A stretch of 64,000 nt of DNA, taken from Zobellia uliginosa. GTDB taxonomy: Bacteria; Bacteroidota; Bacteroidia; Flavobacteriales; Flavobacteriaceae. Each line of letters opens with the position of its first letter. Positions within the stretch are counted from its first letter, which is position 1. The position numbers were made by a program, and so were the translations under genes. Below the pieces are notes generated by a model. The model worked only from the letters and a program-made list of their open reading frames with translations. It made no database searches and was not told the origin of the DNA. The stretch lies in NCBI RefSeq assembly GCF_018860745.1, contig NZ_JAHKPY010000002.1:1-64000 (forward strand), written 5' to 3'. Positions 4,486-26,334 of this stretch are shown in pieces.

Positions 4486-6936
4486 ATGGGAGATCCTAAA
4501 TTCACGAATTTTGACAATATGTCGCTACAGGCCATTGATGAGGATGCAGAGCTGATACCCCTTTTGACTGCAGAGGATGAGGAAGCAATGAATAATGAGG
4601 CTTTGCCTGAAACACTTCCAATATTGCCTTTACGTAACACTGTGTTATTTCCTGGGGTAGTAATTCCTATTACAGCGGGCAGGGATTCGTCCATCAATTT
4701 AATAAAAGATGCGAATAATGGGTCTAAGGTTATTGGTGTTGTATCCCAAAAGGATAAGGATACGGAAAATCCAACGGTAAACGACATAAATGTCTTGGGA
4801 ACGGTAGCCCGTATTTTAAGAGTACTAAAAATGCCAGATGGTAATACTACTGTTATTCTTCAGGGTAAAAAACGTTTTGAAGTAGCGGAAATGCTTACGG
4901 AGGAACCCTATATGACTGCAACGGTTAGGGATACCAATGAAGAGAGGCCCAATCCAACTGAGCCGGAGTTTTTAGCTATTATTGAGTCTATTAAAGATTT
5001 GGCACTTAAAATTATTAGGGATAATCCAAATATACCAAGTGAAGCTTCTTTTGCAATTAAGAACATTCAGAGCAATTCGTTCTTGATCAACTTTGTTTCG
5101 TCTAATCTTAATCTTGGTGTAAAGGAAAAGCAGGAACTATTGGAGATTAATAATCTTCAAGAACGTGCGTTGGCTACTTTAAAACATATGAATCTTGAAC
5201 TTCAGAAATTGGAGTTGAAGAATGATATACAGTCCAAGGTTCGTAATGATATGGACCAACAGCAGCGCGAGTATTTCTTGCATCAGCAAATGAAAACCAT
5301 TCAGGAAGAATTGGGCGGTGTTTCTCATGATGACGAGATTTTTGAAATGCGAAAGAGGGCTAAAAAGAAAAAATGGGACGATAAGGTCAAGGAGCATTTT
5401 GATAAAGAATTGGCCAAAATGCAGAGGATGAATCCGCAAGTGGCGGAGTATTCTATCCAAAGAAATTATTTAGACCTTTTTCTGGATTTGCCTTGGAACG
5501 AGTTTTCTAAAGATAAATTCGATTTAAAAAGAGCCCAGAAAATTCTAGATCGTGATCACTATGGTCTTGAAGATGTAAAGCGCCGCATTATTGAATATTT
5601 AGCGGTACTTAAGCTTAGAAACGATATGAAATCACCTATTCTATGTCTTTATGGACCTCCAGGGGTAGGTAAGACATCATTGGGTAAATCCGTAGCTGAA
5701 GCGCTTGGGCGCGAATATGTAAGGATATCTTTAGGTGGTTTAAGAGATGAAGCTGAAATACGCGGACACCGAAAAACGTACATAGGCGCTATGCCGGGTA
5801 GAATTGTTCAGAGTTTGAAAAAGGCGGGGACTTCTAACCCTGTTTTTATCTTGGATGAAATAGATAAATTATCAAGTAGCCATCAAGGTGATCCCTCTTC
5901 TGCCATGTTGGAGGTTCTTGACCCAGAACAGAACAGTGAATTTTATGACAACTTTTTAGAGATGGGATATGACCTTTCCAAGGTTATGTTTATCGCAACA
6001 GCCAATAATCTAAGTACAATTCAGCCAGCGCTTCGTGACCGTATGGAGATTATTAATGTTACCGGGTATACTATAGAGGAAAAAGTTGAGATTGCTAAAA
6101 GACACTTGCTACCAAAGCAGTTAAAAGAACATGGTCTTACTAGCAAAGATTTAACTATAGGGAAGCCTCAGTTAGAGAAAATCGTAGAAGGGTATACACG
6201 TGAATCCGGAGTTCGTTCTTTGGAGAAGCAGATAGCTAAAATGGTACGTTATGCGGCCAAAAATATCGCAACGGAAGAAGAATATGAGGTTAAGGTAACC
6301 AATGATGTGGTCGTAAAAGTTCTTGGACCTGCCAGATTGGAGCGGGATAAATATGAGAACAATGATGTAGCCGGAGTTGTTACCGGTCTTGCATGGACAA
6401 GTGTGGGAGGGGATATTCTTTTTATTGAGTCGATCTTATCTAAAGGAAAAGGTAGTTTAAATATCACCGGAAACTTGGGTAAGGTAATGAAAGAATCGGC
6501 TACCATTGCTATGGAATACATAAAGTCCAATGCGGAGCGTTTTGGTATAAACGCAGAAGTATTCGATAAATATAATGTTCATATTCACGTACCGGAAGGT
6601 GCTACTCCAAAAGATGGTCCAAGTGCAGGTATAACTATGTTGACTTCCTTAGTTTCCTTGTTTACGCAAAGGAAAGTGAAGAAGAGTTTGGCTATGACCG
6701 GCGAGATAACTTTAAGAGGTAAGGTACTACCTGTAGGAGGAATCAAAGAGAAAATACTTGCGGCTAAAAGGGCTAGAATAAAAGAATTGATTCTTTGTAA
6801 AGATAATGAAAGAGATATTTTAGAGATAAAAAAAGAGTATCTTAAGGGTCTTAAATTTCATTATGTTACAGACATGCATGAAGTTATAGATATTGCCCTA
6901 ACATCCCAAAAAGTTAAGAACGCTAAAAAACTCTAA
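4486..6936 (+). CDS. lon: ATP-dependent protease Lon
   Basis: Cytoplasmic ATP-driven serine protease that removes misfolded and short-lived regulatory proteins. Visible features are the N-terminal LON substrate-binding domain ([14 protein letters not shown]), a coiled-coil middle, an AAA+ module with Walker [10 protein letters not shown] near residue 390 and Walker [10 protein letters not shown], and the C-terminal protease domain with the Ser-Lys dyad (DGPSAG, serine about 713; GGIKEK, lysine about 754). The start was set at ATG 4486 ([11 protein letters not shown]), which fits flavobacterial Lon N-termini as I remember them; an ATG at 4468 would add six residues but lies in the palindrome. 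Length (816 aa) is normal. The stop overlaps the cmk start by one base, so the two are probably cotranscribed. Confidence 0.97.
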
Positions 6937-14794: not shown

Positions 14795-16897
14795 ATGATA
14801 AAGACAAGACCAAAATACATAAATAGAGAAATTAGTTGGCTACGTTTTAACGAAAGAGTGCTTCAAGAATGCGAGGATGAAAATGTACCGTTAATTGAAC
14901 GTCTTCGTTTTTTAGGTATTTTTTCAAATAATCTTGATGAGTTCTTTAAGGTGCGTTATGCCACGGTGAAACGTATTTTTGAAGCCGGGAAATCTGGTAA
15001 AAGTGTTTTGGGAGGAGAAAAGGCAAAAGATTTACTGGTTGAAATTACCAAGTTTGTTATAGAGCAGCAACGTAAAAGTGTTGAGATTCTTAAGAAAATT
15101 GAAAACGAACTTGAGGAGCAAGACGTATACCTTCTGAATGAAACAGAACTTTCTGAAGCTCAAGGAAAATTCGTTAAAAAATATTTTGTACAAAAAGTAA
15201 GTCCACAGCTCATGACCATTATCTTAAATGATTTGGCAGAGTTTCCAATGCTAAAGGATACCGCAGCTTATCTAGCGGTAAAAATGGTTTTACAGAGTGA
15301 TGATCGCACCAAGAGTACATTTGAGAAGAAAGAAAAGCGTTACGCGCTTATTGAGATTCCTAAGGGTATTGACAGGTTTGTGGTTTTACCAAAAGAGGGA
15401 GATAAAAACTATGTTATTATTTTAGATGATATAATTCGCTATTGTATGGATAGCGTTTTCCCAATGTTCGATTATAAGAGCATATCTTCTCATATGATCA
15501 AGATTACCAGGGATGCTGAGCTGGATATAGATAATGATTTGAGTAAGAGTTTTATAGAGAAAATTTATTCTAGTGTTGAGCACAGAAAAATTAGTGATCC
15601 GGTACGTTTTGTATATGATAAAAACATAGAAACGGATACGTTAGACTTTCTGAAAGAAAAAATGGGTATTGAAGACGCAGATAGTGTCATACCCGGTGGT
15701 AGATACCATAATAAAAGGGATTACATGGGCTTTCCTAGTTTAGGGAGAGAGGATCTTATGTATGATAAAATTGCTCCGCTACCGGTAAAAGGCCTTAGTC
15801 TTGAGGGGAGTTTGTTAGAGCAAATTGCTGAAAAAGATTATTTGCAGTATACCCCTTATCACACGTTTTCTTATGTGTTGAAGTTTTTAAGGGAAGCTGC
15901 TCTTGACCCTAAGGTAAAAGCAATTAAAATAACGGTTTATCGCCTAGCTAATGATTCTCAGGTTGCCGCATGTCTTTCAAACGCTGTAAAAAATGGGAAA
16001 CAGGTGACATTGCAAATTGAGCTACGTGCCCGTTTTGATGAACAGGCTAATATTAGATATGCCGAAGAACTGCAAGCAGAAGGGGTAAAACTTATTTTTG
16101 GCGTTCCCGGTCTAAAAGTGCACAGTAAGATTTGTATGATAGAGCGCGAAGAAAATGGAATTTTAAAGCGTTATGGTTTTATAAGTACTGGTAACTTCAA
16201 TGAATCAACTGCAAGAATATATACGGATTATACCTTGTTCACTGCTAATGAGCCTATATTAAAGGAGTTAAACAAGGTTTTTGATTTTTTTGAAACTACC
16301 TATAAAATTAATAAGTACAAGCATTTAATAGTATCTCCTCATTATACAAAATCCTTCTTTACAAAACTTATAGATAAAGAAATTATAAATGCCGAGGCGG
16401 GTAAACAAGCTTTCATAAAGATAAAAATGAACAGTTTTACTTCGTACAAGATGATTGATAAATTGTACGAAGCCAGTAACGCTGGGGTAAAGATTCAACT
16501 AATTGTTCGTGGTATTTGTTGCTTGATTCCTGGAATTGAAGGAATGAGCGAAAATATTGAAGCAATCAGTATAGTAGATAAGTTTTTGGAGCATCCGCGT
16601 ATGTTTATATTTTGTAATGATGGTGATACTAGAGTGTTTATTTCTTCAGCGGATTTTATGACCCGTAATCTCGAGAACAGAGTTGAGGTGGGTTGCCCTA
16701 TTTATGACGAAGATGTCAAAAAAGAATTGATCGATACGTATGAGATTTCATGGAACGATAATGTGAAAGCCCGGGTTTTCAATGAGGCACAGGATAACGC
16801 TTATCGTGTAAATGATAAGCCTAAGTTACGTTCACAATTTGCTACGTATGATTATTATCTAGATAAATTGGGTTCTAATATTCCTACTACGGAGTAA
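14795..16897 (+). CDS. ppk1: Polyphosphate kinase 1
   Basis: Makes inorganic polyphosphate from ATP. The N-terminal domain begins with the typical INREISWLRFNERVLQE; the two phospholipase-D-like halves carry the autophosphorylated histidine region (KVHSKICMIERE, residue about 443) and STGNFNESTARIYTD, followed by RGICCLIPGIEGMS. The length of 700 aa is normal. It directly abuts sixA. A weak inverted repeat (16920-16950) lies after the stop. Confidence 0.97.
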   Translation: MIKTRPKYINREISWLRFNERVLQECEDENVPLIERLRFLGIFSNNLDEFFKVRYATVKRIFEAGKSGKSVLGGEKAKDLLVEITKFVIEQQRKSVEILKKIENELEEQDVYLLNETELSEAQGKFVKKYFVQKVSPQLMTIILNDLAEFPMLKDTAAYLAVKMVLQSDDRTKSTFEKKEKRYALIEIPKGIDRFVVLPKEGDKNYVIILDDIIRYCMDSVFPMFDYKSISSHMIKITRDAELDIDNDLSKSFIEKIYSSVEHRKISDPVRFVYDKNIETDTLDFLKEKMGIEDADSVIPGGRYHNKRDYMGFPSLGREDLMYDKIAPLPVKGLSLEGSLLEQIAEKDYLQYTPYHTFSYVLKFLREAALDPKVKAIKITVYRLANDSQVAACLSNAVKNGKQVTLQIELRARFDEQANIRYAEELQAEGVKLIFGVPGLKVHSKICMIEREENGILKRYGFISTGNFNESTARIYTDYTLFTANEPILKELNKVFDFFETTYKINKYKHLIVSPHYTKSFFTKLIDKEIINAEAGKQAFIKIKMNSFTSYKMIDKLYEASNAGVKIQLIVRGICCLIPGIEGMSENIEAISIVDKFLEHPRMFIFCNDGDTRVFISSADFMTRNLENRVEVGCPIYDEDVKKELIDTYEISWNDNVKARVFNEAQDNAYRVNDKPKLRSQFATYDYYLDKLGSNIPTTE

Positions 16898-16955
16898 AGA
16901 GTAGTTTACGTTTCAAGTTTTAGGTATTATTTGATTTTACCTAAAGCTTGATTTT

Positions 16956-17537
16956 TTATCCATGAATACTTTCTTTATTACTTAGGTCTTTCATTATTTC
17001 TGCCTCAAAATCTAAGAGTGACTGCCATTTTCTGTCTACTTCCTCGCGGTCTCCATATTGTCTTGCAAATTTTAAGAACATGGTATAATGTCCTGCTTCG
17101 CTTACCATAAGTTTATGGTAGAAATCGGCAAGTTCTTTATCTTCCAATTCTTCGGAAAGCAATCTAAAGCGTTCGCAGCTCCGAGCTTCGATTAATGCAG
17201 CATATAAAAGACGATGCACCAACTGGGTAGTACGGCTTCCGCCTTTGGGAAAGAACTTTATTAATTGAAGAACATATTCGTCTTTTCTGTCACGTCCCAA
17301 ACTCTGACCTCTTGCTGTAATCCGGTCATGCACCATTTTAAAATGGGCCATTTCCTCTCGCGAAAGTGCAATCATTTCTTCCACCAACTCAGTATATTCC
17401 GGAAAACTTATGATCAAGGATATAGCCGTGCTTGCTGCTTTTTGCTCGCAATACGCATGATCGGTCAAAATTTCATCTATATTTTTCTCAACAATATTTA
17501 CCCATCTTGGGTCAGTTGGTAGCTTTAAACCTAGCAT
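16956..17537 (-). CDS. miaE: tRNA-(ms2io6A37)-hydroxylase
   Basis: Ferritin-like non-haem diiron monooxygenase that hydroxylates the isopentenyl group of ms2i6A37 in tRNA. The carboxylate/histidine ligand motifs are visible: DHAYCEQKAA (near residue 26), EEMAHF (near residue 66), EARSCERF and SEAGHY (near residue 147). The length of 193 aa is typical. It is a single gene between ppk1 (convergent) and the ebo cluster (divergent). Confidence 0.93.
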   Translation of the reverse strand: MLGLKLPTDPRWVNIVEKNIDEILTDHAYCEQKAASTAISLIISFPEYTELVEEMIALSREEMAHFKMVHDRITARGQSLGRDRKDEYVLQLIKFFPKGGSRTTQLVHRLLYAALIEARSCERFRLLSEELEDKELADFYHKLMVSEAGHYTMFLKFARQYGDREEVDRKWQSLLDFEAEIMKDLSNKESIHG

Positions 17538-17626
17538 AATTCAATTTTTCGTAAAATTAGCAAGAATCTTTGTAAACTATAACTTGAATTTAGCATCTTA
17601 AATATCATGTTATCCCAAAGAATAAT

Positions 17627-17634
17627 TAGTTTTG
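17627..17634 (+). promoter_or_regulatory. Probable -7 element for the ebo operon
   Basis: TAGTTTTG matches TANNTTTG on the forward strand, about 80 bp before eboA. No good -33 element was found at the expected distance, so this is only a candidate. Confidence 0.4.
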
Positions 17635-17715
17635 TAGATAGTTGTTTTTTATAATGCCGAAAGGTGAAAGAAAACAGGGTTGTTACCACTTATCAAGAAA
17701 CCCGAAAAACAGAAT

Positions 17716-18573
17716 ATGGAATTAACCAAATTAGACCAAGAACTTCAGACTTTATTAAGCAGTAATTTAGACCCTGATACAGATTCATGGTTGCATTCAA
17801 AACTAGAACAAATAATTAGTTCAAGTTCTACAAAAGATCTGTACATGACGTATAGCCTATTGGCTAGTAAAATAGATTCAGACACTATTCTGAATTTAAG
17901 TCCTGATACAGATGAAGTAACCGAGTATTTGCTTAAACAGAATGCTACCGTACTTCAAATAGCCCGCATTTATCTTTTATTGAAGGTGTTGAAGGCAGAT
18001 GGTGATTTTTTCGTACCTAAAGTGGCTAACCTTATTCAAGTAGCAGATATCGGAGAGCTGGAAACCTTCTTAAAATTTCTGATTCTGTTACCCGATTCCG
18101 AAAATTATAAGCAGACTGCAGTTGAGGCTTTACGAACGAATATTTCCACCATATTTAAAGCCATAAGTATGCAGAATCCATATCCCGCAAAATATTTTAA
18201 TGATCAACAATGGAACCAAATGTTCCTTAAAGCTGCTTTTATGCAGTTAGATCTTTCTGCCATTTTAAGTATTGATGAGCGAGCGAATAAGGATTTAACA
18301 CGAATTATATCTGATTACGCACATGAAAGGTGGGCGGCATCCAGAGAAATAGAGCCTTTGTTTTGGCGGCCTGTGGCAGCATTTTTAGATGAAACCTTGT
18401 TGAAAGATATGGAGTGCTTGTTCGCAAGTGATAATCTTGTTGAAAATAAAGTAGCGGCACTGTGTTGTTATAATTCTAAAGAGCCAAAAGCCAAAGAGTT
18501 ATTGGCCCAACACCCAAATTTAAAGGCTCAAGTAACGAATAAAGAAATTACCTGGAAAAATATAAAAGCTTAA
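17716..18573 (+). CDS. eboA: EboA domain protein
   Basis: A 285-aa soluble, helix-rich protein recognised as EboA mainly because it heads a complete ebo gene set; the motif SILSIDERANKDLTRIISDYAHERWAASR region (residues about 192-220) and the RPVAAFL stretch fit the family as I know it. No catalytic motif, signal peptide or membrane segment is visible. The start was set at ATG 17716 (MELTKLDQELQ) instead of the upstream in-frame TTG at 17680. The next gene starts 1 bp after its stop. Molecular function is unknown; known ebo clusters are linked to moving or processing a metabolite precursor. Confidence 0.85.
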   Translation: MELTKLDQELQTLLSSNLDPDTDSWLHSKLEQIISSSSTKDLYMTYSLLASKIDSDTILNLSPDTDEVTEYLLKQNATVLQIARIYLLLKVLKADGDFFVPKVANLIQVADIGELETFLKFLILLPDSENYKQTAVEALRTNISTIFKAISMQNPYPAKYFNDQQWNQMFLKAAFMQLDLSAILSIDERANKDLTRIISDYAHERWAASREIEPLFWRPVAAFLDETLLKDMECLFASDNLVENKVAALCCYNSKEPKAKELLAQHPNLKAQVTNKEITWKNIKA

Positions 18574-18574
18574 T

Positions 18575-19483
18575 ATGGAAGATAAAATGATGATAATAGA
18601 TCCGCATGTACACATGTCATCTAGAACTACGGACGATTATGAAGCGATGGCCGCGGCCGGAGTTGTTGCGGTAATAGAGCCTTCTTTTTGGATGGGACAG
18701 CCAAGGACTCAGGTAGGTTCTTTTCAAGATTATTACAGCAGTTTAGTAGGTTGGGAGCCGTTTAGAGCTAGTCAGTTTGGTATTCAGCATTATTGTACCA
18801 TCGGTTTAAATTCCAAAGAAGCAAATAATGAGGCTTTAGCGGAACAGGTTATTGAGCTTTTACCTCTATACCTGCACAAACAGAATGTGGTGGCCATAGG
18901 TGAGATAGGTTATGATGATCAAACTCCGGCAGAGGATAAATACTTCCGTATGCAGCTAGAAATGGCCAAGGAATTGGATATGGTGGTTCAGGTGCACACA
19001 CCACATCGTGATAAAAAGGCTGGTACGCTTAAAAGTATGGAAGTTTGTCTGGAACACGGCCTAGACCCTGCAAAGGTAGTTATTGACCACAATAACGAAG
19101 AAACCGTAAAAGAGGTTTTGGACAAAGGTTTTATTGCTGCATTTACCATCTACCCAAAAACAAAAATGGGTAATGAGCGTATGGTTGAAGTGGTTAAAAA
19201 GTTTGGAAGTACTAATATTATTGTAGATAGTTCTGCGGATTGGGGCGTTAGTGACCCTTTGGCCGTGCCAAAAACAGCAAATCTTATGCTGAAAAGAGGT
19301 ATTGCAAAAGAGGACGTTGTAAAAACCTGTTACCAAAATGCATTGGATATTTTTGGTTCTAACGGCAAAATGAAAGAGGAGCATTGGTTGAAATCCAAAG
19401 GAGTAAATCAAGCTCAACTTTTTAATGACAACAGTGTTTTAAGAGGACAAGAACCCAGAGTAGATTCTGATCAGATTACATAA
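18575..19483 (+). CDS. eboB: EboB, TatD-family metal-dependent hydrolase
   Basis: A TIM-barrel hydrolase of the TatD type, 302 aa. Metal-binding features are seen in order: IIDPHVHM (HxH near residue 10), IGEIGYDD (glutamate), VQVHTPHRDK, VVIDHNNEE and VDSSADWG. The substrate in ebo systems is not known. It overlaps eboC by one base (TAATG) and sits 1 bp after eboA, which argues for one operon. The variant motifs differ from the housekeeping TatD DNase, in keeping with a specialised role. Confidence 0.88.
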   Translation: MEDKMMIIDPHVHMSSRTTDDYEAMAAAGVVAVIEPSFWMGQPRTQVGSFQDYYSSLVGWEPFRASQFGIQHYCTIGLNSKEANNEALAEQVIELLPLYLHKQNVVAIGEIGYDDQTPAEDKYFRMQLEMAKELDMVVQVHTPHRDKKAGTLKSMEVCLEHGLDPAKVVIDHNNEETVKEVLDKGFIAAFTIYPKTKMGNERMVEVVKKFGSTNIIVDSSADWGVSDPLAVPKTANLMLKRGIAKEDVVKTCYQNALDIFGSNGKMKEEHWLKSKGVNQAQLFNDNSVLRGQEPRVDSDQIT

Positions 19484-20385
19484 TGAATTCCACATTTCTT
19501 GGATATGCGCGATTGGCAAGACCTGCTAACTTACCAACTGCCGCCGCCGATATTTTGGCCGGTGTAGCTATTGGAGGTGTTTTTGCAAGCGGTGTAACAT
19601 CAGATTTTTTAGGTTCAGTGTTGTTTACGCATATCTTGTGCCTTATGTTTTCATCCGTTTTTTTATATGCGGGCGGGGTAATCCTTAATGATGTTTTCGA
19701 CTTTAAAATAGATCAAGTAGAACGGCCAGAACGGCCTATCCCTAGCGGAGTTGTGCCGATAGCGGCTGCAACGCTATATGGTTCAATTACTTTGGTTATC
19801 GGAATTCTGTTGGCCTTTTTGGTATCGAGTATTTCAGGTGGTGTTGCCTTTGCGCTTGCTATGGCTATACTTTTATATGACGGCATTGCCAAAAAGTATG
19901 ATTTTTTTGGTCCTTTGAGTATGGGTTTGTGTAGAGGGATAAACCTCCTATTGGGAATGTCCATTTTAGGAGATTTCAATTACTGGTTTATGGCCATTAT
20001 CCCTATTGTGTATATCTTCGCTATTACATTGATTAGTAGGGGGGAAGTGCATGGTGAAAACAAAAACCACATCGTGCTGGCAGGTGTACTTTATGGTATG
20101 GTGATTTTGGCCGTTGCATCTATAGCATTTTTATATACGGATGACCTAATATTTTCGTTATTGTTTCTAGTAGTGTTTGCGTTCACGGTGTTAAGACCTT
20201 TGGTCAAAGCCCATTCCGTAAACTCTCCTGAGAATATTAAAAAAGCGGTTATGGCAGGAGTTATATCGCTTATATTGCTAGATGCATCTGTAGCTGTTGC
20301 ATTTTCAGATTGGTGGTATGGTTTGATAATACTGGCCTTATTGCCTATTTCTAAGGGCCTGTCTAAATTATTTGCCGTTACTTAA
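19483..20385 (+). CDS. eboC: EboC, UbiA-like membrane prenyltransferase
   Basis: An integral membrane protein of the UbiA superfamily, about 300 aa with eight or nine hydrophobic segments. The first prenyl-diphosphate Asp motif appears as NDVFDFKIDQVERPERPIPSG (NDxxDxxxD, about residues 70-90), and a second region YDGIAKKYDFFGPLSMG (about residue 130) stands in place of the second motif. It could attach a prenyl chain to a small aromatic or polar acceptor in the membrane. It starts inside the stop of eboB. This is the only multi-pass protein among the six ebo products. Confidence 0.9.
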   Translation: MNSTFLGYARLARPANLPTAAADILAGVAIGGVFASGVTSDFLGSVLFTHILCLMFSSVFLYAGGVILNDVFDFKIDQVERPERPIPSGVVPIAAATLYGSITLVIGILLAFLVSSISGGVAFALAMAILLYDGIAKKYDFFGPLSMGLCRGINLLLGMSILGDFNYWFMAIIPIVYIFAITLISRGEVHGENKNHIVLAGVLYGMVILAVASIAFLYTDDLIFSLLFLVVFAFTVLRPLVKAHSVNSPENIKKAVMAGVISLILLDASVAVAFSDWWYGLIILALLPISKGLSKLFAVT

Positions 20386-20417
20386 GGTCAATTGTATTGG
20401 CGTTCAAAATAAATTCG

Positions 20418-21578
20418 ATGTTTAAAACAATAGAACAGAAATTTGAGGTTTCATATCAATATGGCCTCCACTTTACCGAAAACTTGTTCGGTATAAAAAA
20501 CACCTTGTTCAGGGATGTTATCAAAGCTTATAAGAATGAGCCTGTAAAATTACTCTTTGTGATTGATGATGGTGTGGCCGAGGCTCACCCGGAATTAATA
20601 CAAAACATTAAAACCTACTGTCTGCAATACCAAGAGAATCTGTTGCATACTAAAAGTATGGTCGTTCAAGGTGGTGAGACTTGTAAAAATGATGAGAGTC
20701 AGGTTGAGGCTATTCTAAAAGCGGTTAGTGAATACGCTATTTGCAGGCATTCTTTTGTAGTTGTAATTGGCGGCGGTGCGGTTATTGATATGGCAGGTTA
20801 TGCCGCGGCAATTGCCCATAGAGGTGTAAAACTAATACGTATACCAACAACGGTATTATCTCAGGATGATTCTGCGGTAGGGGTTAAGAATAGTGTGAAT
20901 GCCTTTGGGAAGAAGAATTTTATTGGAACTTTCGCTCCTCCGTTCGCTATAATTAATGATACGGATTTTTTAAAAACCTTGGAGCAGCGCGATTGGATAT
21001 CCGGTATTTCGGAAGCTCTAAAAGTAGCACTGATTAAAGATGATGTCTTTTTTGAATATTTGGAAAAAAACGCTCATTTATTAAGAGAGAGAAATATGGA
21101 AGCTATGCAGTACACCATCTATAGGTGTGCCGAAATGCATATGCATCATATAGCACAGGGTGGAGACCCGTTTGAGAGTGGTTCTTCCAGACCATTGGAT
21201 TTTGGACATTGGGCAGCCCATAAATTAGAATATATGACCAATTATGCACTGCGTCATGGTGAAGCGGTTGCAAAAGGAATTGTTCTAGATGTTGCCTATG
21301 CTCATTTAGTCGGTTTGATAAATGAGTCCGATTTAAATCGTGTAGTGCAGGTTTTTCAGAATATAGGTTTTGATTTGAGTTTTCCGTTATCTTCTGAGAA
21401 AGAAGTAAACGAGTTGCTGAATGGAATAGAAGAATTTCGGGAGCACTTAGGTGGGGAACTCACGATAACGTTAATTTCTGATATTGGCGTAAAATATGAT
21501 GTTCACGAAATTGATAGGGGAACCATGAAAAATGCATTGGACTTGGTAAACGAAATTTCAAAACTTAAAGTAAAATAG
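20418..21578 (+). CDS. eboD: EboD, 3-dehydroquinate synthase-like protein
   Basis: Sugar-phosphate-cyclase/dehydroquinate-synthase fold. NAD-binding VIGGGAVIDMAGYAAA lies near residue 115, followed by RIPTTVLSQDDSAVGVK, where housekeeping AroB has a GGKTG-type loop; metal ligands are likely in EALKVALI, the GSSRPLDFGHWAAHKLE histidine and the LRHGEAVAKG histidine. It is therefore a cyclase homologue that may act on a different sugar phosphate. ATG 20418 (MFKTIEQKFEVSY) is preferred to TTG 20397. It ends 1 bp before eboE. Confidence 0.9.
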   Translation: MFKTIEQKFEVSYQYGLHFTENLFGIKNTLFRDVIKAYKNEPVKLLFVIDDGVAEAHPELIQNIKTYCLQYQENLLHTKSMVVQGGETCKNDESQVEAILKAVSEYAICRHSFVVVIGGGAVIDMAGYAAAIAHRGVKLIRIPTTVLSQDDSAVGVKNSVNAFGKKNFIGTFAPPFAIINDTDFLKTLEQRDWISGISEALKVALIKDDVFFEYLEKNAHLLRERNMEAMQYTIYRCAEMHMHHIAQGGDPFESGSSRPLDFGHWAAHKLEYMTNYALRHGEAVAKGIVLDVAYAHLVGLINESDLNRVVQVFQNIGFDLSFPLSSEKEVNELLNGIEEFREHLGGELTITLISDIGVKYDVHEIDRGTMKNALDLVNEISKLKVK

Positions 21579-21579
21579 C

Positions 21580-22773
21580 TTGCGCATAGATAAAAATTTT
21601 CAACTTACATATTGTACCAATATCCACCCAGGATTTGATTGGAAGACCACTTTTGATAGTCTAAAGAATCACGTTCCGCAGATTAAGCAAAAAGTAGCTC
21701 CCAGCAAGCCTTTCGGTTTGGGGTTGCGTTTATCCAATAAAGCGAGTGAGGAACTTGCTTTGGATTCGAATCTTGCTGAATTTCAACAATGGCTGAGTGA
21801 AAACGAGGTATATGTTTTTACCATGAACGGTTTTCCGTATGGTAATTTTCACAACGAACGCGTTAAGGATGATGTGCATGCGCCAGATTGGACCGCGCAG
21901 GAAAGGTTGACATATACTAGGCGTATGTTCGATCAGTTAGCGGCTTTGCTTCCTGAAGGTAATACGGGTGGAATTTCAACGTCTCCAGTAAGCTATAAAT
22001 ATTGGCATGCTACAGAAGAAGCGACTAAAACAGCTTTTGAAACGGGAGCAAAAAATATGCTCGAAGTTGCCACCCATCTACATAAAATAGAACAAGAAAC
22101 CGGAAAATATCTACATTTGGATATAGAGCCGGAGCCTGATGGTATGTTGGAGAATAGTGATGAGGTTCTTCAATTTTTCGCTGATTATTTATTGCCTATT
22201 GGTGTTGCCCTAATAGGTGAAAAATTAGGGTTGGATGCTGAAGCTGCAAAGAAATTGATTCACCGTTACCTTACCGTGTGCTATGATATTTGCCATTTTT
22301 CATTAGCTTACGAAGAGCCAACGGACACTTTTGAAAAATTGGAAAAAGCGGGAATTGCAATAGGGAAAATTCAAGTGAGTGCTGCTTTAAAAATTCTTTC
22401 AAATCCGTCAGGGAATGATGAAATTTGGGAAGCTTTGGCACTTTTTGATGAGCCTACCTATTTACACCAAGTAACTGAAAAGGTGAGTGGTAAGGTAAAA
22501 ACCTATAATGATTTGCCTATTGTTCTTGAACATAAAAGGGAATTTGAAGAATTACGCGCACATTTTCACGTGCCTATTTTTTTAGAACGTTTTGGAGCTT
22601 TGAATTCTACCCAAGACCATATTCTAAAAGTGATGAAATATTTAAAGGAACACCCTGTTTCCGAACATTTGGAAATTGAGACCTACACTTGGGATGTTCT
22701 CCCATCTGCTTTAAAGAGAGACCTTTCCGAGTCTATTATAAGGGAGATTGATTGGTTTGTAGATAAGTTTTAG
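21580..22773 (+). CDS. eboE: EboE, TIM-barrel metabolite traffic protein
   Basis: A 397-aa protein matching the EboE family (QLTYCTNIHPGFDWKTTFDSL at the start, then MNGFPYGNFHNERVKDDVHAPDW near residue 80 and LDIEPEPDG near residue 180). It has a sugar-isomerase-like xylose isomerase/TIM-barrel look with acidic and histidine residues (CYDICHF, EIETYTWDV). The only plausible start is TTG at 21580, because the next ATG would remove the conserved N-terminus. It sits 1 bp after eboD and 3 bp before eboF. Confidence 0.88.
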   Translation: MRIDKNFQLTYCTNIHPGFDWKTTFDSLKNHVPQIKQKVAPSKPFGLGLRLSNKASEELALDSNLAEFQQWLSENEVYVFTMNGFPYGNFHNERVKDDVHAPDWTAQERLTYTRRMFDQLAALLPEGNTGGISTSPVSYKYWHATEEATKTAFETGAKNMLEVATHLHKIEQETGKYLHLDIEPEPDGMLENSDEVLQFFADYLLPIGVALIGEKLGLDAEAAKKLIHRYLTVCYDICHFSLAYEEPTDTFEKLEKAGIAIGKIQVSAALKILSNPSGNDEIWEALALFDEPTYLHQVTEKVSGKVKTYNDLPIVLEHKREFEELRAHFHVPIFLERFGALNSTQDHILKVMKYLKEHPVSEHLEIETYTWDVLPSALKRDLSESIIREIDWFVDKF

Positions 22774-22776
22774 AAG

Positions 22777-24156
22777 ATGAAGAAAACGCTAGTGATTAAT
22801 GTTGTGGGCTTGACGCAACGTCTTATTGGGGAGCATACCCCATTTATAGAATCCTTTCTTAAAAAGGGAAAATCTGCTTACATAAATCCTGTTTTGCCAG
22901 CAGTAACTTGTTCTGCACAATCCACTTATTTGACGGGGAAAACTCCTGACGAACATGGTATTGTCGGGAATGGTTGGTATTTTAAAGATGAGTGTGAAGT
23001 TAAATTTTGGCGTCAGTCAAATAAACTGGTGGAAAGCGATAAACTTTGGGACGAACTAAAAAAACAGGATGAACATTTTACCTGTGCGAACCATTTTTGG
23101 TGGTACAATATGTACTCTACCGTAGATTATAGCTTAACGCCCAGACCTAATTATTTGGCCGATGGCAGAAAAATACCGGATGTGTATTCTTATCCTCCCG
23201 AGTTGAGGGATACGTTACAGGGTGAGCTGGGTACTTTTCCATTATTTCAGTTTTGGGGTCCTAAAACCTCTATAAAATCCAGCAAATGGATTGCTGATGC
23301 GGCTATTCGTACGGATGAGATGCATAATCCTACTTTGTCTTTGGTTTATCTTCCGCATTTGGATTATAACTTACAGCGCCACGGACTCAATTTTGAAAAA
23401 ATCAAAAAAGACTTAAAAGAGATAGATGGAGTAGTGGAGCATCTGGTAAAACATTTTGAGAAGCGAAATACAAGAATTGTACTGCTGTCTGAATATGGTA
23501 TTACCGATGTAAATAACCCTATTCATTTAAACAGAATCTTACGTTCCAAAGGCTATATTGCTATTAGGGAAGAACGCGGACTTGAACTTTTGGATGCAGG
23601 TCAGAGCAAGGCTTTTGCTGTAGCAGACCATCAAATTGCACATATTTATTTAAATGACCCTGCCGTAAAGCTAGAGGTAAAGGCTTTGTTAGAAACAGTT
23701 TCCGGAGTTGAAAAAGTACTAACAGGAGAAGAATTGGAAAAAGCCAATTTAAATCATGAAAGAAGTGGAGACCTTGTTGTGGTTGCCGATGCCGATTCAT
23801 GGTTTACCTATTATTTTTGGTTGGATGATGCTAAAGCGCCGGATTATGCCCGAATGGTAGATATACATAAAAAACCAGGTTATGATCCAGTTGAGATGTT
23901 GACTGACCCGAAAGATAAATTGGTAATGGCGAAGGTTATTGTCAAGTTACTTAAGAAAAAAATGGGATTCAGAACGGTAATGAATATCATTCCGTTGGAT
24001 GCTACGTTAGTTAAAGGATCCCATGGCCGAATACCGGAAGATAAAGCTGATTTCCCGATTTTAATTACGGATCAAATAAATTCCTCATTTAATGATGATA
24101 TTGAAGCTACGGATGTGTTTGGGATTTTAAAAAACCATATAATGGAAGAAGTATGA
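22777..24156 (+). CDS. eboF: EboF, alkaline phosphatase-superfamily protein
   Basis: A 459-aa member of the nucleotide pyrophosphatase/phosphodiesterase branch of the alkaline phosphatase superfamily. The nucleophile region is PAVTCSAQSTYLTGKTPDEHG (residues about 46-66) and late histidine ligands are in VADHQIAH and KGSHGRIPED. However, the first metal motif (usually IDGLR) reads VVGLTQR, and the motif usually written SDHGM reads SEYGI, so several canonical metal ligands differ. No signal peptide is seen, so the protein is probably cytoplasmic or peripheral to the inner membrane. Its stop overlaps the start of the TMEM220 gene by four bases. Confidence 0.88.
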   Translation: MKKTLVINVVGLTQRLIGEHTPFIESFLKKGKSAYINPVLPAVTCSAQSTYLTGKTPDEHGIVGNGWYFKDECEVKFWRQSNKLVESDKLWDELKKQDEHFTCANHFWWYNMYSTVDYSLTPRPNYLADGRKIPDVYSYPPELRDTLQGELGTFPLFQFWGPKTSIKSSKWIADAAIRTDEMHNPTLSLVYLPHLDYNLQRHGLNFEKIKKDLKEIDGVVEHLVKHFEKRNTRIVLLSEYGITDVNNPIHLNRILRSKGYIAIREERGLELLDAGQSKAFAVADHQIAHIYLNDPAVKLEVKALLETVSGVEKVLTGEELEKANLNHERSGDLVVVADADSWFTYYFWLDDAKAPDYARMVDIHKKPGYDPVEMLTDPKDKLVMAKVIVKLLKKKMGFRTVMNIIPLDATLVKGSHGRIPEDKADFPILITDQINSSFNDDIEATDVFGILKNHIMEEV

Positions 24157-24530
24157 AGTATTTCTTTAAAATATTGAGTTCTGTATTTGCGGTCCTTTTT
24201 GCTTGGGCGGCTTACCTACAATATAATGATCCAGATGCTACTACTTGGTATATTATTTACGGTTTAGCTGCTTTAGCGTCATTACTTTTTGTAGTTAACC
24301 GTTTGACTTTTACTATAGCAACCTTTTTTTGTTTATTGGCCATGATAGGTGCTTATAAACAATGGCCTGTGCAATTTGAGGGTTTTACTATTGGAGAAGG
24401 AGATATAGAGAATATTGAACGCGGTAGAGAAGCTTGTGGTTTGCTGATTATAGCAGTAATTATGCTGGTATACGCACTGCGAATTCGCTTTGTAAAAAGG
24501 ATTAAAGGTCTAAGTCAAAAGTTTTTCTGA
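24153..24530 (+). CDS. TMEM220-family membrane protein at the end of the ebo operon
   Basis: A 125-aa protein with four predicted membrane helices and the family motif AAYLQYNDPDATTWYIIYG (residues about 19-37), which identifies the transmembrane 220 group. Function is unknown. Its ATG overlaps the eboF stop by four bases, so it is translated as part of the ebo transcript. Its last 29 bp overlap the 3' end of dnaX, which runs the other way. Confidence 0.88.
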   Translation: MKYFFKILSSVFAVLFAWAAYLQYNDPDATTWYIIYGLAALASLLFVVNRLTFTIATFFCLLAMIGAYKQWPVQFEGFTIGEGDIENIERGREACGLLIIAVIMLVYALRIRFVKRIKGLSQKFF

Positions 24531-26334
24531 GTAAATCTATCGCTGGATTTTTCTCCCTAAGTTTTTCGTATTTTTCTTCAGGTGTAAAAGCGAATTTTTT
24601 AGCTACACTTTCGTTGACTGTAATTTTTAGTTCAATGAAGTAGTTGTTTAAGTTTCGCCTTAGGTGCTCCATAAGCCCGTATTGCTCCCGCTCAATTTCT
24701 TTTTTCATAGTGCCGTTTGGAAGTTCTATCCAAATGGTCTTGTCCTGAACTAATTTAGGTATATCTGCATTGAGGTTGGAAGCTAGAATTTTCTTTCCTT
24801 CCAAATCGATTTTATCAACAAAATCCGCCCAATGTTTTTGCATTTCCTCTTCGGTAAAAGCATCCTTTGGTAGTTTGCTTTCGTCAATAGTTTCGTCTTT
24901 GCGACTAAGCTCGTGTTCTTTTTTTGCTTTTAAACTAGAAATAGAAAGTCCGGATACTCGTTTTCCTCCACCTATATTAAGCTTTTTTGCGGGTGTGGCT
25001 TTGGGTTGAGGGGCTGCGGTTTCTTCTATTTTAGGTTCGGCAACAGCTATAGAACTAGGTGTTCTTGTTGTTTCTTCTTTTTGGTACTGTGGACTTTCCT
25101 GTTTTTTAGTTGTTACAGCTGTTTCTGGAGTAGCTGGTTTGGGCTGTTCCTGAGCCGGTGTTGAAGTTTGTGCCTGAGTTTTTGCAGGAGAATTATTTCC
25201 TTTAAAAAAAGAAGCAGGTGCTATAAAATCGATAGTGGAACCGTCTAGGACGTCAGATTCAGAATTTTTTTTTTCTGCCTCAAATCCAATCGAAGCTAAT
25301 TTCATTAAGGTAAGTTCAACCAGCAGCCGTTGGTTTTTACTGGTTTTATATTTTAAATCGCAGTCATTGGCGATGTTTAAAGCTTGCAGTAAGAACTGCA
25401 TCCCTGTCTTTTTTGACTGTTCCAGGTAGTTTTGCTTGGCCACGTCACCAACTTCCAGCAAGTTAATCGTGTCTTGATGTTGACAAACCATTAAATCCCT
25501 AAAATGAGAAGCTAAACCACTTATAAAGTGATGTCCGTCAAAACCTAGGGATAAGGTCTTATTGAATAAAAGTAGCAACTGCGGAATGTTGTGCTCCAAA
25601 ATTAAATCGGTTGCCGAGAAATAGGTATCGTAATCAAGAACATTAAGGTTCTCAGTAACTGCTTTTCTAGTTAGTTCTTTGCCTGAAAAGCTAACTACCC
25701 TGTCAAAAATAGAAAGGGCATCTCTCATGGCGCCATCTGCCTTTTGAGCTATAATATGCAACGCATCATCATCAGCGACAATACCTTGATTTTCAGCAAT
25801 ATATTTCAAATATTCAGCAGCGTCTTTAACTGTAATTCGCTTAAAATCAAATATTTGACAACGAGAAAGTATCGTTGGTATGATTTTGTGTTTCTCCGTG
25901 GTAGCCAAGATAAAAATGGCATGCTTTGGCGGTTCTTCAAGTGTTTTTAGAAAAGCGTTGAAGGCCGATTGAGAGAGCATGTGTACCTCATCTATAATAT
26001 ATACCTTGTATTTACCAACCTGTGGCGGTATACGAACCTGGTCTATAAGATTACGAATATCATCAACAGAGTTATTTGAGGCTGCATCGAGCTCAAAAAT
26101 ATTAAAAGCAAAATCCTCACCTTCCTTTTCTGTACCATCAGAATTTATCTGTTTGGCCAAAATACGGGCACAAGTAGTTTTGCCAACACCACGCGGACCG
26201 CAGAACAATAGCGCCTGCGCCAAATGATTGTGCTCAATGGCATTGGTCAACGTATTGGTAATGGCCTGTTGCCCCACAACATCTCTAAATGTCTGAGGTC
26301 TATACTTACGTGCCGATACAATAAAGGGTTCCAA
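24502..26334 (-). CDS. dnaX: DNA polymerase III subunit gamma/tau
   Basis: AAA+ clamp-loader ATPase of the replisome. Walker A GPRGVGKTTCAR is near residue 46, Walker B IIDEVHMLS near residue 114, and the SRC sensor motif ILSRCQIF near residue 157. The region from about 400 to 480 is a low-complexity Pro/Thr/Ala/Gln linker typical of tau, followed by a C-terminal domain. The zinc-binding module (four cysteines) that normally follows Walker A is absent: the sequence runs from AKQINSDGTEKEGEDFAFNI straight into the IFELDAASNN motif. Length is 610 aa. Confidence 0.95.
   Translation of the reverse strand: MEPFIVSARKYRPQTFRDVVGQQAITNTLTNAIEHNHLAQALLFCGPRGVGKTTCARILAKQINSDGTEKEGEDFAFNIFELDAASNNSVDDIRNLIDQVRIPPQVGKYKVYIIDEVHMLSQSAFNAFLKTLEEPPKHAIFILATTEKHKIIPTILSRCQIFDFKRITVKDAAEYLKYIAENQGIVADDDALHIIAQKADGAMRDALSIFDRVVSFSGKELTRKAVTENLNVLDYDTYFSATDLILEHNIPQLLLLFNKTLSLGFDGHHFISGLASHFRDLMVCQHQDTINLLEVGDVAKQNYLEQSKKTGMQFLLQALNIANDCDLKYKTSKNQRLLVELTLMKLASIGFEAEKKNSESDVLDGSTIDFIAPASFFKGNNSPAKTQAQTSTPAQEQPKPATPETAVTTKKQESPQYQKEETTRTPSSIAVAEPKIEETAAPQPKATPAKKLNIGGGKRVSGLSISSLKAKKEHELSRKDETIDESKLPKDAFTEEEMQKHWADFVDKIDLEGKKILASNLNADIPKLVQDKTIWIELPNGTMKKEIEREQYGLMEHLRRNLNNYFIELKITVNESVAKKFAFTPEEKYEKLREKNPAIDLLRKTFDLDL

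Follow-up and report, generated by a model that had tools for sequence, protein, structure and literature searches.

The order ABCDEF of the six ebo genes is described as ancestral in Bacteroidetes (PMC5133447), and the scytonemin-associated ebo cluster of Nostoc punctiforme is implicated in the movement of a small molecule to the periplasm (PMC6282210). EboC of Maribacter, Zobellia and Algoriphagus acts in vitro as a farnesyltransferase on 8-hydroxyquinoline-2-carboxylic acid (8-HQA; PMC9235831). Here we describe an ebo operon of Zobellia uliginosa, located in a stretch of 64,000 nucleotides (the window; contig NZ_JAHKPY010000002.1, positions 1 to 64,000 of the forward strand), in which the six genes are followed by a gene for a membrane protein of the TMEM220 family. 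This family (PF15071) is named after a human gene, and no bacterial role for it was found in print among the matches listed. Clusters of the ebo type are widespread, and a membrane partner whose conserved site probably faces the periplasm is a concrete place to look for their product.

Compared to the ABCDEF-type operon, the window holds the same six genes in identical order and differs in the TMEM220 gene coupled to eboF; the accessible text of PMC5133447 makes no mention of TMEM220. The Ebo proteins are also those of N. punctiforme (PMC6282210), and TMEM220, the one family counted there, was found in none of 146 cyanobacterial genomes. The EboC of the window belongs to the same protein family, and comes from the same phylum, as Ubi-297, the EboC of Maribacter; the Ubi-297 assays covered EboC alone in vitro with 8-HQA as acceptor (PMC9235831). 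In our preferred interpretation, which we consider about as likely as not, an ABCDEF-type ebo operon is joined here by TMEM220 as a Bacteroidota accessory, a helper on the periplasmic side of the inner membrane. The association of TMEM220 with ebo is more general than this one locus, and the seven-gene arrangement lies far beyond chance, because the same arrangement recurs in other genera; the mechanism set out below is a proposal. The seven genes and the two that border the island are as follows (scores in bits).

17716-18573, + strand: eboA; EboA domain model NF035938, 149.9 (cut-off 50), no Pfam match
18575-19483, + strand: eboB, TatD-like metal hydrolase; PF01026, 69.6 (cut-off 27), and position
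19483-20385, + strand: eboC, UbiA-type prenyltransferase; NF035940, 365 (cut-off 250)
20418-21578, + strand: eboD, sugar phosphate cyclase family; PRK06203, 558.9 (cut-off 333)
21580-22773, + strand: eboE, xylose-isomerase-like TIM barrel; NF035939, 489.7 (cut-off 250)
22777-24156, + strand: eboF, NPP/alkaline-phosphatase fold whose metal site has been re-made; PF01663, 219 (cut-off 23)
24153-24530, + strand: TMEM220, four-helix membrane protein; PF15071, 83.5 (cut-off 27)
16956-17537, - strand: MiaE-like gene that bounds the island upstream; PF06175, 151.9
24502-26334, - strand: dnaX, convergent downstream border; PRK14971, 725

Open reading frames and profile scans place eboA to eboF contiguously on one strand in ABCDEF order (17716-24156). 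From eboA to TMEM220 the successive junctions are a 1 bp gap, a 1 bp overlap, a 32 bp gap, a 1 bp gap, a 3 bp gap and a 4 bp overlap; the 32 bp assume that eboD starts at the ATG at 20418, and the alternative TTG at 20397 reduces this gap to 11 bp. An earlier sequence-only reading had called the cluster complete, in order and tightly spaced, with TMEM220 coupled to eboF by four shared bases. Its coordinates and gene calls are correct, and the coupling is confirmed at 24153-24156, where ATGA is common to the end of eboF and the start of TMEM220. EboB is recognised by the general TatD family only and EboF by PF01663 only, while EboA exceeds the broader EboA model and stays below the cut-off of the narrower NF035937 (173.6 bits, cut-off 320). 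The end of TMEM220 is overlapped by dnaX over 29 bp on the opposite strand. A weak pattern scan for terminator-like sites on the + strand found none between eboF and TMEM220. Searching 16586-26153 with a Bacteroidota-type promoter pattern (single spacing) gave no + strand match; as the pattern is no commoner in the window than by chance, this is uninformative for TMEM220 and for eboA alike. The whole genome holds a single TMEM220 and a single EboE match by profile search.

In two families, almost every sampled genome that has ebo also has TMEM220, and in part of these genomes the two are adjacent. TMEM220 was detected by PF15071 and ebo by the EboE model, both in the same genomes. The window's family (249 genomes, 235 genera) has 62 genomes with TMEM220, 46 with EboE and 43 with both, so that TMEM220 occurs in 43/46 ebo genomes versus 19/203 others. 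For the family of Algoriphagus boritolerans (196 genomes) the counts are 109, 71 and 69, or 69/71 versus 40/125. A phylum-wide sample of 296 genomes, a few of them in common with the window's-family set, gave 40, 24 and 18 (18/24 ebo genomes versus 22/272 others). The two families combined leave only five of 117 ebo genomes in which TMEM220 was not found. Where an ebo locus has no TMEM220 in place, the gene is usually elsewhere: we checked 36 of 45 loci without apparent TMEM220 genome-wide, two of which later proved TMEM220-adjacent, and 27 of the remaining 34 genomes carry it at another site. The other seven, without a match, are four cyanobacteria, a Fodinibius, a Flavobacterium and an Algoriphagus metagenome-assembled genome.

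Where TMEM220 and ebo are linked, the layout varies. With classes assigned by the distance between matches, the window's family (n=43) shows TMEM220 directly after eboF in 32 genomes (1414-1571 bp from the EboE match), upstream of eboA in five, at 4.6 kb in one and elsewhere in five. Among the 69 genomes of the Algoriphagus family, ten have it after eboF on the same strand, six tail to tail, two one gene further and one upstream of eboA. A gene-level survey covered the best 80 of 579 confirmed ebo loci, a set that leans to the window's relatives and partly overlaps the family genomes (e.g. L110/G130 and L106/G419; L and G are our numbers for loci and genomes). Here TMEM220 stands directly beside ebo in 36 loci: after eboF in 24, ahead of eboA and co-directional with it in seven, divergently in four and tail to tail in one. 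One further locus has it a few genes off, and 43, some on short contigs, are without it. The gap between eboF and TMEM220 lies between -17 and +20 bp in 34 of the 36 gaps listed. Each of the four ways in which the two can adjoin is represented, and the TMEM220 genes involved come from different branches; the position before eboA is found in four Mucilaginibacter loci and in Salegentibacter, and in Chitinophaga the gene is divergent in three loci and missing from four. The sequence-only reading had suggested counting how often TMEM220 follows eboF in Bacteroidota, and had named a gene present here only as the outcome that would tell against it. As TMEM220 follows eboF in many genera, that objection fails. 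Salegentibacter sp. 24 carries two TMEM220 genes near one ebo cluster (L138:433-801 and 5514-5921), which fall on distant branches of the tree.

TMEM220 genes of different branches were probably brought, or brought back, next to ebo several times, because the trees force several label changes. The TMEM220 tree calls for six changes of the label "before eboA", of which the starred branches alone force five, for seven changes of "after eboF" (four forced) and for two of "divergent" (two forced). The EboE tree, in which L059 and L129 (TMEM220 some genes off) were labelled not adjacent, requires four (three forced), five (four) and two (two) changes, respectively.

The protein itself offers a candidate functional site. 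Its model (pLDDT 93.7) consists of four helices (2-25, 29-47, 53-70 and 85-124), in common with PF15071, and hydropathy agrees on four transmembrane helices. Over 110 TMEM220 rows, two of them repeats, the motif N[DE]x[DE]xxxW is present in 108 and ExxRExxG in all. The invariant polar residues are N25, D26, D28, W32 and Y36 together with E89, R92 and E93, accompanied by G96. Loop charges are compatible with an N-in/C-in topology, and by the positive-inside rule the invariant polar site, which lies in or beside two loops, probably faces the periplasm. A profile comparison with solved structures returned one PDB match (E 0.43), and a Foldseek search gave no match at E <= 0.001. A VKOR-like fold was also considered; its matches fall within the noise range of helical bundles.

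What this site might handle is suggested by the ebo enzymes. The nearest solved chain to EboC is the DGGGP synthase 6m31 (E 6.6e-13), and EboD has 16 structure matches, including DHQS and 2-deoxy-scyllo-inosose synthase. PMC5133447 places EboD near enzymes using sedoheptulose 7-phosphate and proposes a prenylated cyclitol as the ebo product. Further evidence comes from Streptomyces plasmids, for which 28 records have an EboE match; three were inspected, two of these annotated. Both annotated clusters combine an inositol-3-phosphate synthase and a SCO3242-type prenyltransferase with EboA, a TatD-like hydrolase, EboE and an EboF-like gene, and no annotated EboD is present in the inspected stretches of these two plasmids. 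The apparent replacement of EboD by another cyclitol-forming enzyme supports the proposal of PMC5133447. These ebo-like clusters (L087:2192-10555 and L276:11-8585) also hold a ScyD/ScyE family protein. The ebo product may be a prenylated cyclitol. The statement of the sequence-only reading that the Bacteroidota product is unknown holds with the qualifier that EboC farnesylates 8-HQA in vitro (PMC9235831). We postulate that EboD would make a cyclitol-like ring, that EboB, EboE and EboF would modify this ring or its partner, and that EboC would prenylate the ring product in the membrane. TMEM220 would then receive, hold or modify this prenylated compound where the inner membrane faces the periplasm, acting as a helper and not as an essential step. 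Marine flavobacteria are suited to a search for the product, as EboC activity has already been measured there, and the link to ebo gives the TMEM220 family a first functional context.

Several observations weigh against an accessory role in ebo. In the Algoriphagus family TMEM220 and ebo are unlinked in 50 of 69 genomes, and in the phylum sample TMEM220 is missing from six of 24 genomes with ebo. A label change on the trees could be a loss just as well as a gain, and few columns underlie the TMEM220 tree. We further compared both genes on an rpoB tree for which 80 genomes of the window's family were picked by hand (32 with both, 17 with TMEM220 only, 3 with EboE only, 28 with neither; G344 and G372 dropped). 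For 11 independent pairs differing in ebo, TMEM220 changed the same way in 1.2, the opposite way in 0.1 and not at all in 9.7; for eight pairs differing in TMEM220, the corresponding values for ebo were 2.2, 0.8 and 5.0. Neither direction of this pair test is significant for dependence. The Fisher co-occurrence values are consequently inflated by shared ancestry and were rejected as proof of dependence; with TMEM220 unchanged in most ebo-differing pairs, it is the more stable gene. Finally, seven genomes of seven genera hold TMEM220 alone between miaE and dnaX, three of them with ebo elsewhere. No ebo remnants were found at these sites by tblastn (E 1e-2), and the TMEM220 motifs are intact in all seven. 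At the same site in G315 (L080:6555-7754), eboE is the sole ebo gene, the others having been sought at this site only; the genome is without a TMEM220 match and the locus is a decayed island.

An alternative is an independent function, in which TMEM220 has an envelope or sugar-related task and lies near ebo through a common regulon or neighbourhood, outside the ebo pathway. We regard this as a serious but less likely reading. It accommodates the failure of TMEM220 to track ebo changes on the rpoB tree and the 19 of 62 TMEM220 genomes of the window's family without an EboE match, and it gains from the surroundings of the gene. Pfam scans of one representative each identified the neighbours at ebo-free loci as a TonB receptor, ThuA-GSDH, GFO/IDH/MocA, 3-keto-disaccharide hydrolase and GMC oxidoreductase, among others. 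At least 12 of 48 hand-picked genomes have a ThuA gene no more than 10 kb from TMEM220, with 0.84 expected; this set comprises genomes with TMEM220 off the miaE-dnaX site, seven of them with TMEM220 before eboA, and omits the TMEM220 genomes G085, G101, G105, G113, G128, G136, G215, G232 and G372. Queries taken from ebo loci matched TMEM220 loci more often than control windows for ThuA (8/46 versus 1/40) and MocA (5/46 versus 0/40), with no difference for the 3-keto-disaccharide hydrolase (3/46 versus 2/40); the three combined reached 14/46 TMEM220 loci and 3/40 random windows. Protein clusters recurring beside ebo itself include MocA in 11 loci and ThuA-GSDH in ten, one representative of each being identified. 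These neighbours hint that oxidised sugars or cyclitols are processed near the periplasm; they also feed the view of a common neighbourhood. An independent function leaves unexplained, however, the four directly adjacent arrangements with operon-like gaps and the small number of ebo genomes in the two families without TMEM220. We have moderate confidence in a functional link between TMEM220 and ebo, combined with an additional, ebo-independent role of TMEM220.

Hitch-hiking, in which an ancestral TMEM220-ebo unit spread horizontally and adjacency was inherited without function, appears improbable to us. Arrangement labels do cluster on the TMEM220 and EboE trees, and several groups with TMEM220 before eboA look inherited, but four arrangements spread over several TMEM220 subclades call for rearrangements that each ended adjacent, and the 27 genomes with TMEM220 away from their ebo locus do not fit a travelling unit. 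That TMEM220 is an overlooked essential transport subunit is very improbable despite its near-universal presence in the ebo genomes of two Bacteroidota families, and is largely refuted outside Bacteroidota: its absence from the cyanobacteria sampled, a group in which ebo supports scytonemin (PMC6282210), speaks against a strict seventh subunit, and in Deinococcus, Ketogulonicigenium, Azospirillum, Salipiger and the Streptomyces plasmids the ebo stretch likewise holds none. The sequence-only reading had suggested a missing transport or membrane component. TMEM220 may fairly be read as a linked membrane component that had not been described before, but not as a generally missing part, because ebo works for scytonemin in cyanobacteria, where no TMEM220 was found in the genomes sampled, and several genera retain the gene in the absence of ebo. 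The best description of TMEM220 is that of an accessory to ebo in Bacteroidota, and not of a universally missing transporter.

EboF retains the NPP fold in the fold comparison, and its metal site appears re-made. The metal ligands of Xac NPP used for comparison are D54, T90, D210, H214, D257 and H258. Placed by a constant offset, with the second aligned stretch weak alone and H363 outside the comparison, the corresponding EboF residues are V10, T44, D196, Q200, E239 and Y240, so that four of six ligands are replaced. In 107 EboF rows, which include repeats of the same gene, these residues are conserved in 107, 107, 107, 107, 105 and 107, respectively. The label of EboF as a hydrolase is doubtful, because the replacements are almost invariant; the ebo field should treat the database label "phosphodiesterase" with caution.

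A wider view, which we consider unlikely as a whole, would have ebo make a prenylated cyclitol that is bound to the membrane, as a lipid carrier or a redox cofactor, and is coupled to periplasm-facing partners that differ by lineage: TMEM220 in Bacteroidota, a ferritin-like protein together with one of approximately 590 residues in some clusters without TMEM220, and the scytonemin enzymes in cyanobacteria. EboF would then be a re-purposed NPP fold and no hydrolase. The pair of approximately 590-residue and ferritin-like proteins stands beside ebo, with no TMEM220 in the locus, at L142:2801-5642 (by a PF12902 scan), L082:1064-4124 and L278:1072-4090 (by annotation), and L081 and L158 (by sequence clustering).

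Further genes were observed around these loci. In Arenibacter (L101, L103, L104, L094) a gene of approximately 1120 residues lies directly upstream of eboB, separating eboA from eboB in L101; in L104 it encodes a ThuA-GSDH-PKD-cytochrome c protein. At 12 ebo-free loci (L003, L007, L008, L010-L013, L015, L016, L018, L019 and L046) TMEM220 lies next to a gene of about 938 codons for a TonB-dependent receptor, identified by Pfam on L003 only. Photolyase or UvrA genes as TMEM220 neighbours at ebo-free loci were rejected on Pfam scans of one representative each. Upstream of the ebo genes, the window holds a 700-codon open reading frame (14795-16897) that resembles polyphosphate kinase.

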